26,490 nucleotides of DNA, from positions 1 to 26,490 of the IMG/VR virus record IMGVR_UViG_3300028129_000054. The stretch is one strand, 5' to 3'. The notes beneath the pieces are model-generated. The model saw only the letters and a list, made by a program, of their open reading frames with translations. It searched no databases and was not told the DNA's origin. The stretch's first letter is position 1, and every line of letters starts with the position of its first letter. The position numbers and the translations under genes are program-made. The DNA comes from a virus. Shown in pieces: positions 1,236 through 9,635 of this stretch.

Positions 1236-1670
1236 TTATTTAAGGTTTCCTCTAGAATCAACCGCAGCGTATGCATAACTATTTTCTTGATTAATATCTT
1301 GTACTATAATTATTTTTACGTCTCCTAGCATTCCTTTATAAGCAGCTGTGTATGGTGATGGATCCATTCCTTTCCCTCTATCATTACCAAGAAGGTTGGA
1401 ACCTTTCATTTGAGGCGAAACAATATCATACAATTCATCATCATTAGCAGTACTTGAAAGATATCCCATATCAGCAATAGATTTTACTCCTAAATATTTT
1501 AAAGCTGGTTGGTAATTTTTATTAATATCCGCTACTGTCATTCCATCAAGATCAATATTACCTGTCATATCTTTGAGGGAGTCATAAGGACCGCCTTCAA
1601 CCCATGATGGTAATTCAGCTTCATTTAAGTTTTCATTTACAAATTCTGCAAACTTTTTTATATTACTCAT
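1236..1670 (-). CDS. Hypothetical protein with capsid-targeting-like N-terminus
   Basis: This 144-residue protein has no fold or family that I recognise. Its first 17 residues, MSNIKKFAEFVNENLNE, have the pattern basic, hydrophobic, aromatic, then V/L-N-E twice (residues 11-13 and 15-17). That resembles the T4 internal-protein targeting peptide followed by the prohead-protease site (I/L-x-E). The remainder, 18-144, is a small soluble mixed-composition domain with no membrane segment or cysteines. It lies between the acidic repeat protein (20-base gap) and the ligase-like gene (8-base gap), so it is probably cotranscribed with both. I infer a virion-internal protein. There is no clear Shine-Dalgarno; the leader is A-rich (AAAAACAAGAACTAAAGAT before the ATG). 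Confidence 0.75.
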   Translation of the reverse strand: MSNIKKFAEFVNENLNEAELPSWVEGGPYDSLKDMTGNIDLDGMTVADINKNYQPALKYLGVKSIADMGYLSSTANDDELYDIVSPQMKGSNLLGNDRGKGMDPSPYTAAYKGMLGDVKIIIVQDINQENSYAYAAVDSRGNLK

Positions 1671-1690: not shown

Positions 1691-3223
1691 TTATGATCCC
1701 ATAGTAGATTGTAAAGCTCCGACCATTGCGCCGTAATCTTCACCATACTTCTTAATTAATCCATCAGCAGTTTCAGTTGCTTTAGTTTCATCAAAATCAT
1801 CTCCGAATGCATCTTTTAGAATTGCCATTGCATATTCTTTAAATTCATCAGCAGAAGTAATATCCTTTTCATTAATCTTAGCTTCTCCAACTAATGCAGC
1901 ACCTTTTGCTTCAGGTTGAGCTTTTACTTTACCCATATCCATTATATCACCAGCAATACCTGCGGCAGATTCAGAACCGTCTCCCATTTTTGCAGGAACT
2001 TCAGTAGCATCCTTAAGATCATCAGCTTCACCTTTTACTTCAGTTGTAATCTTTTGGTCTTTAGTAACTAATTCTTCGCCTTTTGATTCAGGTTGTACTT
2101 TTACTTTACCCATATCCATTATATCACCAGCAATACCAGCAGCAGTTTCAGAACCGTCGCCTTTTTCTGCAGGAATAGCAAGGCCATCATCACCAGCTTC
2201 TTCATCAGCAATTTCATCACCGGTAACTTTAGTAATTACTTCACCTACCGCTTCTTCTACAGCTTCTTCTTCAGCCTCTATTTCTTCTTCTTCTTCTACT
2301 TCTTCTTCATCATACGATTCAGTTACAAAATTTGAAAAAGACATAATTCTTGATTCATCTTTCTTTTCTTCTTCTTCATCATATTCAGCATCTTTCTTTA
2401 ATGCATCAATTTCGGAGTCATCAGATTTTACAGCTCCTTTATAATGGTCAGCCTTTTCTTTGTCATCTTCAGAATCAACTTTCTTATCACCTTTGTCTTC
2501 TAACTCATCTCCTTCTTTTTCATCTTCCATTCCTTTATCTTCATCATCCTCAGAAATAGCATCGGCAGATGCAGCAACAACAGAATAGTCTTCTTTCTCT
2601 TCATCATCATCGTGATATTTGACATTCTTATTTATTGTAACTTCTTTTTCTTTAATGAAATCTTCGAAAGCCATAATTCTTTTTGTAGCAGCCGGAGTTT
2701 CCTCTTCTTCAGCAGCAACCTCAACACCTTCCTCATCTTCAACTTCATCAGCTTCAGCAGGAACCTCAGCGGTAATTTCAGGATCATCAGATACCTTATC
2801 ACCTGCCTTATCTTCTACATCTTTAGGTTCGCCTTTAGCTAATACTTCATCTTCAATATCTTTTGCAGAGTCTTCTTCAACTTCATCAGTTTCAGCAACT
2901 TCACCATCGGTACCAACTTTATCTTCATCTTTATCTTCTTCAGATTCTAATGATTTAGGTTCACCTTTCTTTTTAACTTCATCAGCTATATCTTCGGCTC
3001 TATCTTCTTCAAGTTCATCCTCAGAAATATCGTCCTTTGGTGAAACATCTTTTAATAAACCTTCTAATTTAGTTAAAAGATTTTTTTCTTTCTTTAATTC
3101 TTCGACACTTTCGTAACCCATCTTTTTAACTAGATCCATTACAGCATCATGATTTGGGTCAGCCGATTCATTAATTGAATCATCAGCTTTAGCCATCAGT
3201 GAAAACTTTTTAATTGGTTTCAT
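1691..3223 (-). CDS. Highly acidic repeat protein with internal capsid-targeting-like peptides (candidate prohead core or internal protein)
   Basis: The protein has 510 residues dominated by Glu and Asp with Lys, low complexity and no cysteine. Two degenerate 44-residue repeats begin at residues 69 and 113 (E-E-D-x-A-x-D-I-x-D-E-V, then K-G-E-P-K). Two strong repeats 59 residues apart (around 351-385 and 410-444) share GDGSE, AAGIAGDIMDMGKVK and QPE. Peptides resembling capsid-targeting sequences occur inside it: RIMAFEDFIKE at 182-192 and RIMSFSNFVTE at 292-302. The N-terminus, MKPIKKFSLMAKAD, is a weaker version. The C-terminal 60 residues look like a small helical domain (DEFKEYAMAILKDAFGDDFDET). 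In T4, acidic core proteins (gp22, gp67) are cut into peptides by the gp21 protease. A similar polyprotein or scaffold role is inferred here; no homologue is recognised. The start lacks a Shine-Dalgarno sequence. Confidence 0.8.
   Translation of the reverse strand: MKPIKKFSLMAKADDSINESADPNHDAVMDLVKKMGYESVEELKKEKNLLTKLEGLLKDVSPKDDISEDELEEDRAEDIADEVKKKGEPKSLESEEDKDEDKVGTDGEVAETDEVEEDSAKDIEDEVLAKGEPKDVEDKAGDKVSDDPEITAEVPAEADEVEDEEGVEVAAEEEETPAATKRIMAFEDFIKEKEVTINKNVKYHDDDEEKEDYSVVAASADAISEDDEDKGMEDEKEGDELEDKGDKKVDSEDDKEKADHYKGAVKSDDSEIDALKKDAEYDEEEEKKDESRIMSFSNFVTESYDEEEVEEEEEIEAEEEAVEEAVGEVITKVTGDEIADEEAGDDGLAIPAEKGDGSETAAGIAGDIMDMGKVKVQPESKGEELVTKDQKITTEVKGEADDLKDATEVPAKMGDGSESAAGIAGDIMDMGKVKAQPEAKGAALVGEAKINEKDITSADEFKEYAMAILKDAFGDDFDETKATETADGLIKKYGEDYGAMVGALQSTMGS
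1911..1996 (-). repeat. Direct repeat copy 2 (59-codon period) in the acidic protein gene
   Basis: The segment beginning tcaggttg on the plus strand recurs 177 bases away at 2088, with a long stretch of near-identity (ccatatccattatatcacc is exact in both). It encodes the second GDGSE / AAGIAGDIMDMGKVK / QPE unit. The 177-base offset is 59 codons, so the reading frame is kept. The high DNA identity suggests a recent duplication or ongoing exchange. Confidence 0.8.
2088..2173 (-). repeat. Direct repeat copy 1 (59-codon period) in the acidic protein gene
   Basis: Partner of the copy starting at 1911, offset by exactly 177 bases. It encodes the first GDGSE / AAGIAGDIMDMGKVK / QPE unit. Differences between the copies are scattered single bases (for example gcggcagat against gcagcagtt), with no insertion or deletion. 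Confidence 0.8.
2284..2312. repeat. TTC/GAA-rich microsatellite encoding a poly-Glu run
   Basis: A near-continuous run of ttc/tct triplets on the plus strand encodes the Glu-rich stretch just after the second internal targeting-like peptide (residues about 304-324). Triplet tracts of this kind can slip in length while keeping frame. Confidence 0.5.
2756..3019 (-). repeat. Two degenerate 44-codon tandem repeats in the acidic protein gene
   Basis: Residues 69-112 and 113-156 align as two units starting DELEEDRAEDIADEV and DEVEEDSAKDIEDEV, each followed by K-G-E-P-K at the same offset. The DNA copies (3019-2888 and 2887-2756) have diverged more than the 59-codon repeats nearer the C-terminus, suggesting an older duplication. 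Confidence 0.6.
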
Positions 3224-4789: not shown

Positions 4790-5238
4790 TAAAATTCCTT
4801 ATCATCTAAGTTTATTCTGTTTCTTATTGCAAATGCCATGTTATCTAAAGTCTTAATACATTCATAGTAATAATCTATATGTGATTGTAACATGTCAATC
4901 TGAGTTTTTAAAGAAGACAGATCGGCTTTTATAAATTGATGCTTTTCGCCATTAGTTAGTTTAACATCATAGTTAACTGAATACTCTCGATATTGGTTCT
5001 TATAATACCTGTCCCAAGTAGCATTCCTTTTATATATGGTGGTCTTAAAATCAGTTACTTTGTCTAATAAGATTTGCCGGTATGAAAGCATTCTTACTTG
5101 GCACTCTGCTAATTCATTCATGTTTTTTAGCTTAGAAACAAGATCTTTGATTTTTGCTTTCCAATCATTCCTATCAGAACCTAATCTAAGTTCTAATTGT
5201 TCATTAGCCTCTTTTATTTGTGTATCATCAAATGCCAT
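4789..5238 (-). CDS. uvsY: UvsY-like recombination mediator
   Basis: This 149-residue, helix-rich protein has no enzymatic motif. Its last ~50 residues have an Ala-Asp, then a long amphipathic helix, a Tyr/Cys-containing helix and a closing L-D-x-x-x-F-A-I-R-x-R segment. From memory this lines up with the C-terminal half of T4 UvsY (SADKDVLKVDTSLQYW, then ALDAIKSRGFAIKHI). T4 UvsY (137 residues) forms rings that load UvsX recombinase onto gp32-coated single-stranded DNA. Size, position immediately upstream of uvsW, and the presence of gp32 and primase in the same operon support the call. No UvsX gene is in this window. The start overlaps the preceding stop (TAATG) behind AAAGGAATATTTTA. Confidence 0.72.
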   Translation of the reverse strand: MAFDDTQIKEANEQLELRLGSDRNDWKAKIKDLVSKLKNMNELAECQVRMLSYRQILLDKVTDFKTTIYKRNATWDRYYKNQYREYSVNYDVKLTNGEKHQFIKADLSSLKTQIDMLQSHIDYYYECIKTLDNMAFAIRNRINLDDKEF

Positions 5239-5453
5239 TAAAATATTCCTTTATCGTTATTAATCTTTTTGTACTGCTTAATCTTTGGCTGAAACCTTTT
5301 CTTAGGTTGCGGTAATGTAAAGGTTGTTTTTACATCATCAGTTTTAATCTTTTTAAATTTAGTAAATAATTTAAGCTTCTTTTTAGAGATTGCTAAATCA
5401 TTATAAAAATCATCAAATTGTTCAGTCACAAAATTGTTGTAATTTTTTATCAT
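5238..5453 (-). CDS. Small basic protein with capsid-targeting-like N-terminus, inside the replication operon
   Basis: The 71-residue product is strongly basic after residue 23 (many Lys, PQPKKRFQPKIKQYKK) and has no recognised family. The first 11 residues, MIKNYNNFVTE, resemble the targeting-like peptides of the cargo proteins in this window. Its start overlaps the primase stop (ATGA) and its stop overlaps the uvsY start (TAATG), so it is translationally coupled on both sides and almost certainly a real gene. A nucleic-acid-binding or DNA-condensing role is possible from charge alone. It could instead be a replication accessory factor. It is too short for a T4 gp59-type helicase loader. Confidence 0.7.
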   Translation of the reverse strand: MIKNYNNFVTEQFDDFYNDLAISKKKLKLFTKFKKIKTDDVKTTFTLPQPKKRFQPKIKQYKKINNDKGIF

Positions 5454-8015: not shown

Positions 8016-8690
8016 TTAAGTTTTTAATGACCACCCTTTTTCTTTATTTGCATTTAATATAAAGTACGCATCTACAAGGTCATCTATTGGTTTAGGGATC
8101 TTTTCTGTAAAGTCTTTACCTTGAGTCCATTTCCATAATTTAGTTTTCCTTAAATCTTTATCGTTAAAAACATCGTCTTGGAATGCTTTAACCATATAAT
8201 GTTTATTTGCATTACCTTTACCTGCTAATTTCTTAACATGTGATGGCTGGTAAATTGAAATATTTTCTACACCCCAAGAATTTACAATTTCATTTCTTAA
8301 GAATGTATTATACTGAACAATGTCAATGAATGAATTCCCTTTTGATCCATACGAAAAACCTTCTAGTGCAATCTTATGGTTTTCTGTTCCATATAATGTT
8401 ATTAAAATATTTGAAATTAAGTCGGCTATGTTTTGACCATCTGTGAGTTTTTCTCTTTCCCTAAGTAAAAAGTCCTTATCCTTTACTTGTCTATAATAAG
8501 GAAACCCTAATATTGTTTTATCGTCCATTAATTCTTTATGAACCGAAAAGGACTTCGGTATCTTTCTACCTTCTTCATCCCATATTCTATTACCGTAATT
8601 AAAGAATGTAATAAATGTGTATTTGCCTTTATGGTCCTGTGTACATGTACCTGGACTATTAAGAGAAAAATCTATACCTGAGTAAATCAA
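8016..8690 (-). CDS. RuvC-like Holliday-junction resolvase
   Basis: The 224-residue protein has an RNase H-like fold signature: D7 in YSGIDFSLN, E110 in KIALEGFSYG, and the closing pair D203/D204 with D207 in KPIDDLVDAYF. Between these, KKLAGKGNANKHYMV (153-167) is the K-x-x-x-G-x-G-x-A-x-K segment typical of RuvC-type resolvases. Such enzymes cut four-way junctions, which a recombination-replicating phage must resolve before packaging. T4 uses an unrelated enzyme, endonuclease VII (gp49). The start is TTG at 8688-8690: an in-frame TAA lies directly upstream, and the first internal Met (residue 55) would remove catalytic D7. It begins 10 bases after the stop of the glycine-zipper protein gene. 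Confidence 0.82.
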   Translation of the reverse strand: MIYSGIDFSLNSPGTCTQDHKGKYTFITFFNYGNRIWDEEGRKIPKSFSVHKELMDDKTILGFPYYRQVKDKDFLLREREKLTDGQNIADLISNILITLYGTENHKIALEGFSYGSKGNSFIDIVQYNTFLRNEIVNSWGVENISIYQPSHVKKLAGKGNANKHYMVKAFQDDVFNDKDLRKTKLWKWTQGKDFTEKIPKPIDDLVDAYFILNANKEKGWSLKT

Positions 8691-8700
8691 TTATAATGGA

Positions 8701-9057
8701 TTAGAGTCTTTTACCTAATACTGCTCCTAATGCAGCACCGATTAATCGACTGGTTAATAAATCATACAAGGCTCCTTTTTGAATACCTAGTACTTTTGCA
8801 ATAGCCTTTCCTACAGATTTACCTAAAGCAAAACCGGTAAGACCACCTAAAACAGATCCTAATATACCTTCATTAATTATTTCCTCCATAATAACCTCTA
8901 AGTCTTTTCCGTTATTATGTTCCTCCATAATTCTATCTACTGCATTATCAATTGCAGTTTCTTGCTCTTCTGTTAAATCATAAGATTCGTTTAATAGATT
9001 TTGGATATCTATAGATTCATTATGGCTTTCAGTAAGGTAATCTTTAAATGTTTTCAT
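8701..9057 (-). CDS. Capsid-targeted pro-peptide-like protein with glycine-zipper C-terminus
   Basis: The first ten residues, MKTFKDYLTE, closely match the T4 internal-protein targeting peptide as I remember it (MKTYQEFIAE). Residues 1-63 are acidic and hold six I/L-x-E triplets, the T4 gp21 protease recognition pattern, ending at E10, E24, E30, E45, E58 and E63. Residues 64-118 contain no Glu and only one Asp (D99), with seven Lys/Arg. They form glycine-spaced hydrophobic helices (GILGSVLGGLTGFALGKSVG, then LIGAALGAVLG). The layout is that of an acidic, cleavable pro-region followed by a cationic, membrane-active or glycine-zipper peptide. I infer a head-packaged, ejected protein; a small membrane protein such as a holin is a possible alternative. 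Upstream, TATAAACA lies 13 bases before the ATG. Confidence 0.78.
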   Translation of the reverse strand: MKTFKDYLTESHNESIDIQNLLNESYDLTEEQETAIDNAVDRIMEEHNNGKDLEVIMEEIINEGILGSVLGGLTGFALGKSVGKAIAKVLGIQKGALYDLLTSRLIGAALGAVLGKRL

Positions 9058-9080: not shown

Positions 9081-9635
9081 TTAAGTAAGATTAACTACAG
9101 TTTCTAATAAGTTATAGCTAAAGTCAATATCAAATGTTTGAAATTCTATCGTGTTACTTGAGAAGTTTAAATCCAATGCACTAACACCAGTAAAAATCAT
9201 ATCCTTTAATTGGCATGTAACAAAAATATTGCCATTACCATCAATCATTTGTAATCCTACTCCTTCTGGTACAAACGGATTTTTTCCACTTTGTTTATAA
9301 TAATAATCAAACACCTCAATAGCCATCCAATAATTAACCCAACCATCAAACGCTTGCATTGTTATAGTTAATGATTTATCAAACAATTCTTGTTTAGGTA
9401 AACTAGTTCTAAACTTTCTAGTATTTCCAGGAAAATCATTTTGCGATATTGGATCAAATGAAGGACCTGGTAAATTCATTGACTGTATTCCATAATTAAA
9501 GTAATCAATAGGTTCTTTAATCATAGAGCCTGGCATCTTATTTAAGTATGGCTTATACTTATCTGAAATTTCCTTAGGTATAAAATTTCTAGGAAATTCA
9601 AATTTAAACTGATTATTTCTTGCGCTTAATATCAT
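9081..9635 (-). CDS. Tail-tube-fold protein (gp19-like tube or baseplate tube cap)
   Basis: The 184-residue protein has features of the contractile-tail tube fold. It has a strand with L-T-I-T-M-Q-A-F-D-G-W (about 88-98), a helix W-V-N-Y-W-M-A-I-E-V-F, an IFVTCQLKDMIFTGVSALDL strand pair, and a closing S-S-N-T-I-E-F-Q-T-F-D-I-D-F-S-Y (about 159-174). From memory this corresponds to the E-I-Q-T-F-E-V-T-L-A-L-D-Y end of T4 gp19. An extra N-terminal ~60 residues rich in Pro and Lys are not part of that core, which could suit a baseplate-proximal tube protein (gp48/gp54 role). It is the last gene of the tail block. Its ATG is 4 bases from AATAAATA and it lacks a Shine-Dalgarno. Confidence 0.6.
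   Translation of the reverse strand: MILSARNNQFKFEFPRNFIPKEISDKYKPYLNKMPGSMIKEPIDYFNYGIQSMNLPGPSFDPISQNDFPGNTRKFRTSLPKQELFDKSLTITMQAFDGWVNYWMAIEVFDYYYKQSGKNPFVPEGVGLQMIDGNGNIFVTCQLKDMIFTGVSALDLNFSSNTIEFQTFDIDFSYNLLETVVNLT

Follow-up and report, generated by a model that had tools for sequence, protein, structure and literature searches.

Described systems and comparison with the locus

Packaging of the phage T4 internal protein IPIII requires no more than its first 10 residues, of which 4 and 7 act in targeting and 8 and 10 in processing (PMC9026906). The 118-aa protein analysed here (P0001) shares with T4 IPI, IPII and IPIII a 10-residue leader (aromatic at 4 and 7, hydrophobic at 8, Glu at 10), a small basic body and a gp21-type protease, which in this case is found in relatives. 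It differs from them in that the body is unrelated, being a predicted glycine-zipper hairpin, and that a long acidic linker carries candidate cuts at 24 and 63; moreover, the relatives' genomes are much larger than that of T4 and the gene lies behind a tail-tube gene. The head and ejection proteins of phiKZ and SPN3US are likewise products of giant phages, with long N-terminal propeptides and multiple redundant Glu cut sites (PMC5694885, PMC9026906), but the phiKZ motif is S/A-x-E and its protease belongs to family S80, whereas here the leader is T4-like and the relatives' protease is S77. In the T4 core proteins gp22, gp67 and gp68, too, several [IL]xE sites in an acidic part would allow it to be broken down into small fragments; unlike them, P0001 has a conserved non-acidic C-terminal domain, Glu-free in most members, and its gene is not beside a protease gene. 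GxxxG-rich helices are shared with Gly-zipper_Omp (PF13488) and Rick_17kDa_Anti (PF05433), families made up mostly of envelope or outer-membrane proteins, although the matches of P0001 are far below the curated cut-offs. A Lak phage relative (MK250029.1 152855-153181), whose gene has an S77 protease gene about 4.4 kb away, possesses a homologous C-domain including DEG, LGIxEKG and LLTSRLV, and its N-terminus NNLFE↓G also reads L-x-E↓G (arrows mark candidate cuts). Its leader is different, however, and GxxxG spacing and positive charge are mostly lost.

An earlier note on this DNA had proposed a packaged pro-peptide, in which a cleavable acidic leader of 63 residues precedes a cationic, membrane-active glycine-zipper peptide. 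Our analysis partly supports this plan, which appears right in outline and has more in its favour than the letters alone could show, but by way of a different feature, a ten-residue T4-type leader. The protein would represent the T4 internal-protein plan with a new, conserved and unusual cargo, alongside many sister cargoes in a clade of giant phages.

A widespread gene with a conserved composition

The DNA examined (the window) is an IMG/VR virus record of 26,490 bases and represents a fragment; its relevant features are listed in Table 1. The gene for the 118-aa protein is real and widespread. A scan of IMG/VR identified 301 stretches encoding a relative, and 244 stretches in an IMG/VR profile scan were confirmed with the LR756500 version. 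The 462-kb uncultured phage genome LR756500.1 contains a 51% identical copy with the surrounding gene order unchanged, and Lak phages (540-552-kb) contain a 37% identical copy. Searches of Pfam, PHROGs and NCBIfam with the protein returned nothing above cut-off, only weak glycine-zipper and unknown PHROG matches. A plasmid search with the C-terminal part gave matches at chance level, and a scan of bacterial genomes gave one 38% match, in a Desertihabitans contig.

Gene order was counted over 162 loci, with those that had room for the neighbour as denominators. The tail-tube-like gene was directly upstream at 144 of 148 loci and the RuvC-like gene downstream at 156 of 158, missing only in Lak. 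Given these neighbours, the family gene ends a run of virion-protein genes, before RuvC, GroES, ssDNA-binding, primase and UvsW-like genes. Across 48 distinct genes, pN/pS ranged from 0.09 to 0.39 by region: residues 1-10 were the most constrained (0.09), followed by 61-64 (0.11, four codons only), 25-60 (0.28, moderate purifying selection) and 11-24 (0.39).

Re-reading the ORF bore out the composition described in the earlier note. All six [IL]xE triplets, at residues 8 (LTE), 22 (LNE), 28 (LTE), 43 (IME), 56 (IME) and 61 (INE), lie within residues 1-63, where shuffles of the same residues gave 2.3 (p=0.006) and the net charge is -14. Their absence after residue 63 is automatic and has no independent weight, because residues 64-118 contain no Glu. 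This C-terminal part does have the claimed single Asp and seven Lys/Arg (five Lys and two Arg, net +6), and its 12 Gly form seven G-xxx-G pairs versus 2.3 in shuffles (p=0.0005). A small residue follows only three of the six triplets (LTE↓S, LNE↓S and INE↓G), the other three (LTEE, IMEE and IMEE) lying inside an acidic stretch predicted to be helical. The overall plan was maintained across 72 distinct relatives, with an N-terminal part of net charge -10 to -18, a C-terminal part of +4 to +6 and six or seven GxxxG pairs; Glu was absent from the C-terminal part in 56 of these and occurred once in 16.

Table 1. Features of the window discussed in the text (AF2, structure model; arrows, candidate cuts)
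Feature	Coordinates	Strand	Basis
Gene for 118-aa leader and glycine-zipper protein (P0001)	8701..9057	-	ATG at 9057
Residues 1-10, MKTFKDYLTE, predicted T4-type capsid-targeting leader; candidate cut E10↓S11	9028..9057	-	Match to T4 IPII/IPIII; pN/pS 0.09
Residues 22-25, LNE↓S, second candidate prohead-protease site	8983..8994	-	E24 invariant in alignment; fits [LIV]NE↓[ASG]
Residues 25-63, acidic, predicted helices 30-48 and 53-62; removed or kept depending on the cut used	8869..8985	-	AF2 local pLDDT about 70-80; pN/pS 0.28
Residues 61-64, INE↓G, cut proposed in the earlier note	8866..8877	-	E63-G64 invariant
Residues 64-118, Glu-free cationic glycine-zipper helical hairpin (predicted helices 74-89 and 104-117)	8704..8868	-	Composition; AF2
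Upstream neighbour, tail-tube-like protein	9081..9635	-	phrog_45 tail tube, E 5.6e-6
Downstream neighbour, RuvC-like Holliday junction resolvase	8016..8690	-	phrog_159, E 4.8e-12
Other leader-bearing protein, MSNIKKFAEFVNE	1236..1670	-	Leader pattern at residue 7
Other leader-bearing protein, MIKNYNNFVTE	5238..5453	-	Leader pattern at residue 5
Acidic 510-aa protein, internal leader-like copies at 186-192 (FEDFIKE) and 296-302 (FSNFVTE); INE↓S at 17	1691..3223	-	Leader-like motifs

A T4-type leader shared with unrelated proteins

T4 IPII and IPIII start with MKTYQEFIAE↓A (read from NC_000866), and the start of P0001, MKTFKDYLTE↓S, agrees with the T4 capsid-targeting sequence (CTS) at all of the positions with a known role in T4 (4, 7, 8 and 10). 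These positions were also retained in the 72 distinct relatives: position 4 was F or Y and position 7 Tyr in all 72, position 8 was L, I or V in 71, and position 10 was Glu in 70. In the family E10 is frequently followed by N, D, E or Q, which is less canonical than Ala.

When the N-terminal 24 aa were searched for [FY]xx[FY][ILVM]xE, with expectations taken from shuffles, similar leaders emerged on many other proteins. LR756500 had 23 among 585 proteins versus 2.2 in shuffles, and four long marine contigs had 13 of 176 (0.35 shuffled), 9 of 134 (0.27), 8 of 131 (0.40) and 6 of 194, with shuffles giving 0.27-0.48 over the four. The bodies behind the leaders were unrelated, and included leucine-rich-repeat proteins, a polynucleotide 3'-phosphatase domain, a DUF2201 metallopeptidase/VWA protein and a RimK-like ATP-grasp protein. 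Among 84 distinct leaders, the residue after the Glu was Ala in 19 (4.5 expected) and Ser in 13 (5.6 expected), and Asn directly preceded the Glu in 40. Ala or Ser at this position is how a T4-type CTS with a scissile bond should look, as in the E↓A of T4. We infer that the other leader-bearing proteins may be packaged as well; the pattern is degenerate, and some of them could be ordinary cytoplasmic enzymes. In the Lak genome the T4-type pattern was not enriched (2 versus 2.4 expected). A different N-terminal leader, approximately K-x-L-[ILMV]-E-S-L-F-D-D, recurs in Lak-C1 (MK250029.1; e.g. genes at 34333, 142601, 151442, 269360 and 367677), and possibly also ends in a cut of the form L-x-E↓S.

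Several of the proteins encountered in these searches displayed features of their own. Within the window, the protein at 5238..5453 also occurs close to the family gene elsewhere, in other contigs, whilst the 510-aa protein is highly acidic with near-repeated segments and may be a core or scaffold-like substrate. Leader-bearing leucine-rich-repeat proteins were observed at L089:13446-14279 (+) and, in LR756500, at 180972-181730 (-), 198758-199531 (-) and 331856-332545 (-). Many LR756500 leader proteins have a common C-terminal motif like NADDFGFFDN, and together the leucine-rich-repeat and motif-bearing proteins possibly form a family of packaged effectors. A leader-bearing protein of 420-430 aa is conserved in contigs G020 (70945-72228), G023 (67659-68954) and G024 (66965-68251) and in LR756500 (267941-269206); its GHMxHPFD-like and E-K-T-D-G-Q-N-like motifs resemble, by eye, a nucleotidyltransferase/ligase active site, and the LR756500 copy had no Pfam match. 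Two small leader-bearing proteins of contig G020 (116376-116723 and 123750-124196) contain strongly hydrophobic segments, with best 19-residue hydropathies (KD19) of 2.23 and 1.82, and mildly favour membrane-active cargo as a class.

Prohead protease and candidate cut sites

The gp21 protease family (PF03420, S77) was detected above cut-off in LR756500, in Lak-C1 and in 7 of 12 further records, and the protease genes adjoin those for the portal (phrog_213) and major head protein (phrog_138). Neither the window nor any of the 18 shorter marine contigs searched yielded one, all of these being fragments (26 kb in the case of the window). The protease ORFs span 570-735 aa, with an N-terminal S77 domain followed by a long acidic/coiled tail (e.g. 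G020 104769-106973, LR756500 226725-228623) that may be a fused scaffold, in place of separate gp21 and gp22. The 118-aa protein is likely to be targeted to the head and cleaved, since its leader matches the T4 CTS, the leader recurs on unrelated proteins and relatives encode an S77 prohead protease. By this reasoning the packaging and cleavable leader of the earlier note gain support, with the T4-like part confined to residues 1-10 instead of 1-63.

Three conserved Glu residues (E10, E24 and E63) are all candidate cuts. In almost every relative S or G comes after E24, and E63-G64 was present in 34 of 34 aligned sequences, Lak included as DEG. The invariance of the latter bond agrees with the cut that the earlier note had placed there, but its P3 residue does not: this was I in 34, V in 23 and T in 15 of the 72 relatives, so that only about half fit the strict gp21 substrate rule (L/I-x-E kept in the family). 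A looser clade pattern, [LIV]NE↓[ASG], accommodates E63↓G64 in 57 of the 72. This pattern occurs in the 118-aa protein at residues 22-25 and 61-64, and genome-wide counts exceeded those of shuffles (44 vs 9.1, 26 vs 8.5, 24 vs 6.4 and 43 vs 24.6). One 1075-aa protein of contig G024 (70382-73609, +) contains six such motifs and may be a cleavable head polyprotein.

Residues 25-60 may remain in the mature protein, given their helical look and moderate purifying selection. The mature N-terminus may lie at 11, 25 or 64, and the protein may be cut more than once; redundant propeptide cut sites are known in T4 and giant phages (PMC5694885; PMC9026906).

The C-terminal glycine-zipper part

An AF2 model, built from an alignment without the Lak rows and with the LR756500 gene taken as its IMG/VR copy, had a pLDDT of 64 and placed both C-terminal helices at low confidence. 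The seven GxxxG pairs fall in this predicted helical segment, and most of the invariant positions lie in the C-terminal part (G71, G79, L90-G91, K94-G95, L100, T102-S103, L105, A109, G111 and G115). The KD19 of the protein, 1.43 (family mean 1.40, range 1.27-1.79), is borderline, falling below the value of about 1.6 or more that marks a transmembrane helix. Pfam Gly-zipper_Omp weakly matched 26 of 32 members (best E 5e-5), P0001 itself lying far below cut-off. A profile search of the PDB returned no match with E below 0.3, and Foldseek searches of PDB and BFVD returned none better than E about 1, with a query model too weak to use. Lak relatives keep the hydrophobic C-domain at a net charge of +1 with one GxxxG pair; neither charge nor GxxxG spacing is therefore universal. 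In sum, the suggestion of a membrane-inserting or pore-forming peptide gains from the GxxxG spacing and is weakened by the hydropathy, the model confidence and the Lak losses, leaving a membrane role plausible but no more.

Proposed mechanism and alternatives

The best explanation, which we consider probable, is that this giant tailed phage targets the protein to its capsid as an internal head protein in the manner of T4. Residues 1-10 would dock it into the prohead core as a capsid-targeting sequence. Acidic pieces of the leader would next be removed by a T4-type S77 prohead protease, which would cleave on the C-terminal side of E10 and likely of E24 and/or E63 as well. The glycine-zipper hairpin, as residues 64-118 or as a longer form starting at 11 or 25, would then remain in the head with the DNA and be ejected with it, its most likely role being at the host envelope. 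The features read directly from sequence are the leader match and its recurrence, the S77 proteases of relatives, the conserved sites and purifying selection. The low pN/pS at residues 1-10 and 61-64 and the place of the gene at the end of the virion-gene run also favour this explanation, while the degenerate leader pattern, the less canonical residue after E10, Thr as P3 of E63 in 15 of 72 relatives, the low hydropathy and the lack of a structural match count against it. From these, packaging in the head seems rather probable and cleavage at some Glu site nearly as much so; cleavage specifically at E63↓G64 is quite possible, if slightly doubtful, and action on the host membrane is a more tentative proposal.

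A serious, if unlikely, rival keeps the same packaging and cleavage and dispenses with the membrane, the lysine-rich C-terminus instead packing on the packaged DNA. Lysines of T4 internal proteins contact DNA phosphates (PMC3012670) and the C-terminal part is consistently positive in the 72 relatives, yet the Lak C-domain has been kept at a net charge of +1 and hydrophobic residues are better conserved than charge. The protein might alternatively tether the prohead to the membrane, with the leader and acidic part bound to the core and the hairpin inserted, so that a cut at E63↓G64 frees the prohead and leaves the hairpin in the producing cell, not the virion. T4 heads are indeed assembled at the inner membrane and set free once proteolysis has taken place (PMC5694885), the invariant candidate cut sits exactly at the acidic/hydrophobic border, and a small helical hairpin would suit such a task. 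The borderline hydropathy, the location of the gene among tail genes (in LR756500 the protease lies tens of kb away) and the fact that in T4 the leader directs cargo into the core interior make a tether clearly unlikely.

Two further readings are less probable still. The fixed place behind the tail-tube-like gene could mean that the protein belongs to the tail or neck structure, being small and produced together with the tail tube so as to plug or cap it; the likeness to the T4 leader would then be incidental. We judge this improbable, as the position is not kept in Lak phages and agreement with four T4 CTS positions in 70-72 of 72 relatives would be hard to get by chance. A holin or other lysis protein, expressed late as a two-helix membrane protein whose acidic N-terminus faces the cytoplasm, would account for the small size and the predicted helical hairpin with its glycine zipper, and one of 32 members weakly matched a 'hol-like' PHROG (E 0.005); P0001 itself matched no holin family in Pfam, PHROGs or NCBIfam. 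Such a role leaves the T4-type leader and the invariant NEG site unexplained, the gene is flanked by tail-tube and RuvC genes instead of lysis genes, and the C-terminal conservation is very high, which is unusual for holins. It is the least probable of the readings considered.

Implications for giant phages

The open-licence papers searched yielded none that joins glycine zippers with phage ejection, describes this T4-type leader in these giant phages or describes this conserved, small, possibly membrane-active cargo. The fullest version of the proposed head-protein reading, which remains speculative and on balance unlikely, is that the giant-phage clade of LR756500 and its marine relatives loads dozens of cargoes by a T4-type leader. 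One near-universal glycine-zipper cargo would be freed from its acidic pro-part by the prohead protease and ejected to act on the membrane of the host, perhaps by forming a DNA-entry conduit or as a depolarizing peptide. The analysis turns a guess based on composition into a head-loading signal that can be tested, as a leader of ten residues would tell which proteins of giant phages are carried in the capsid. If true, this would provide a sequence rule for finding the injected proteins of uncultured giant phages, and would single out a conserved, small and possibly membrane-active cargo amongst them.
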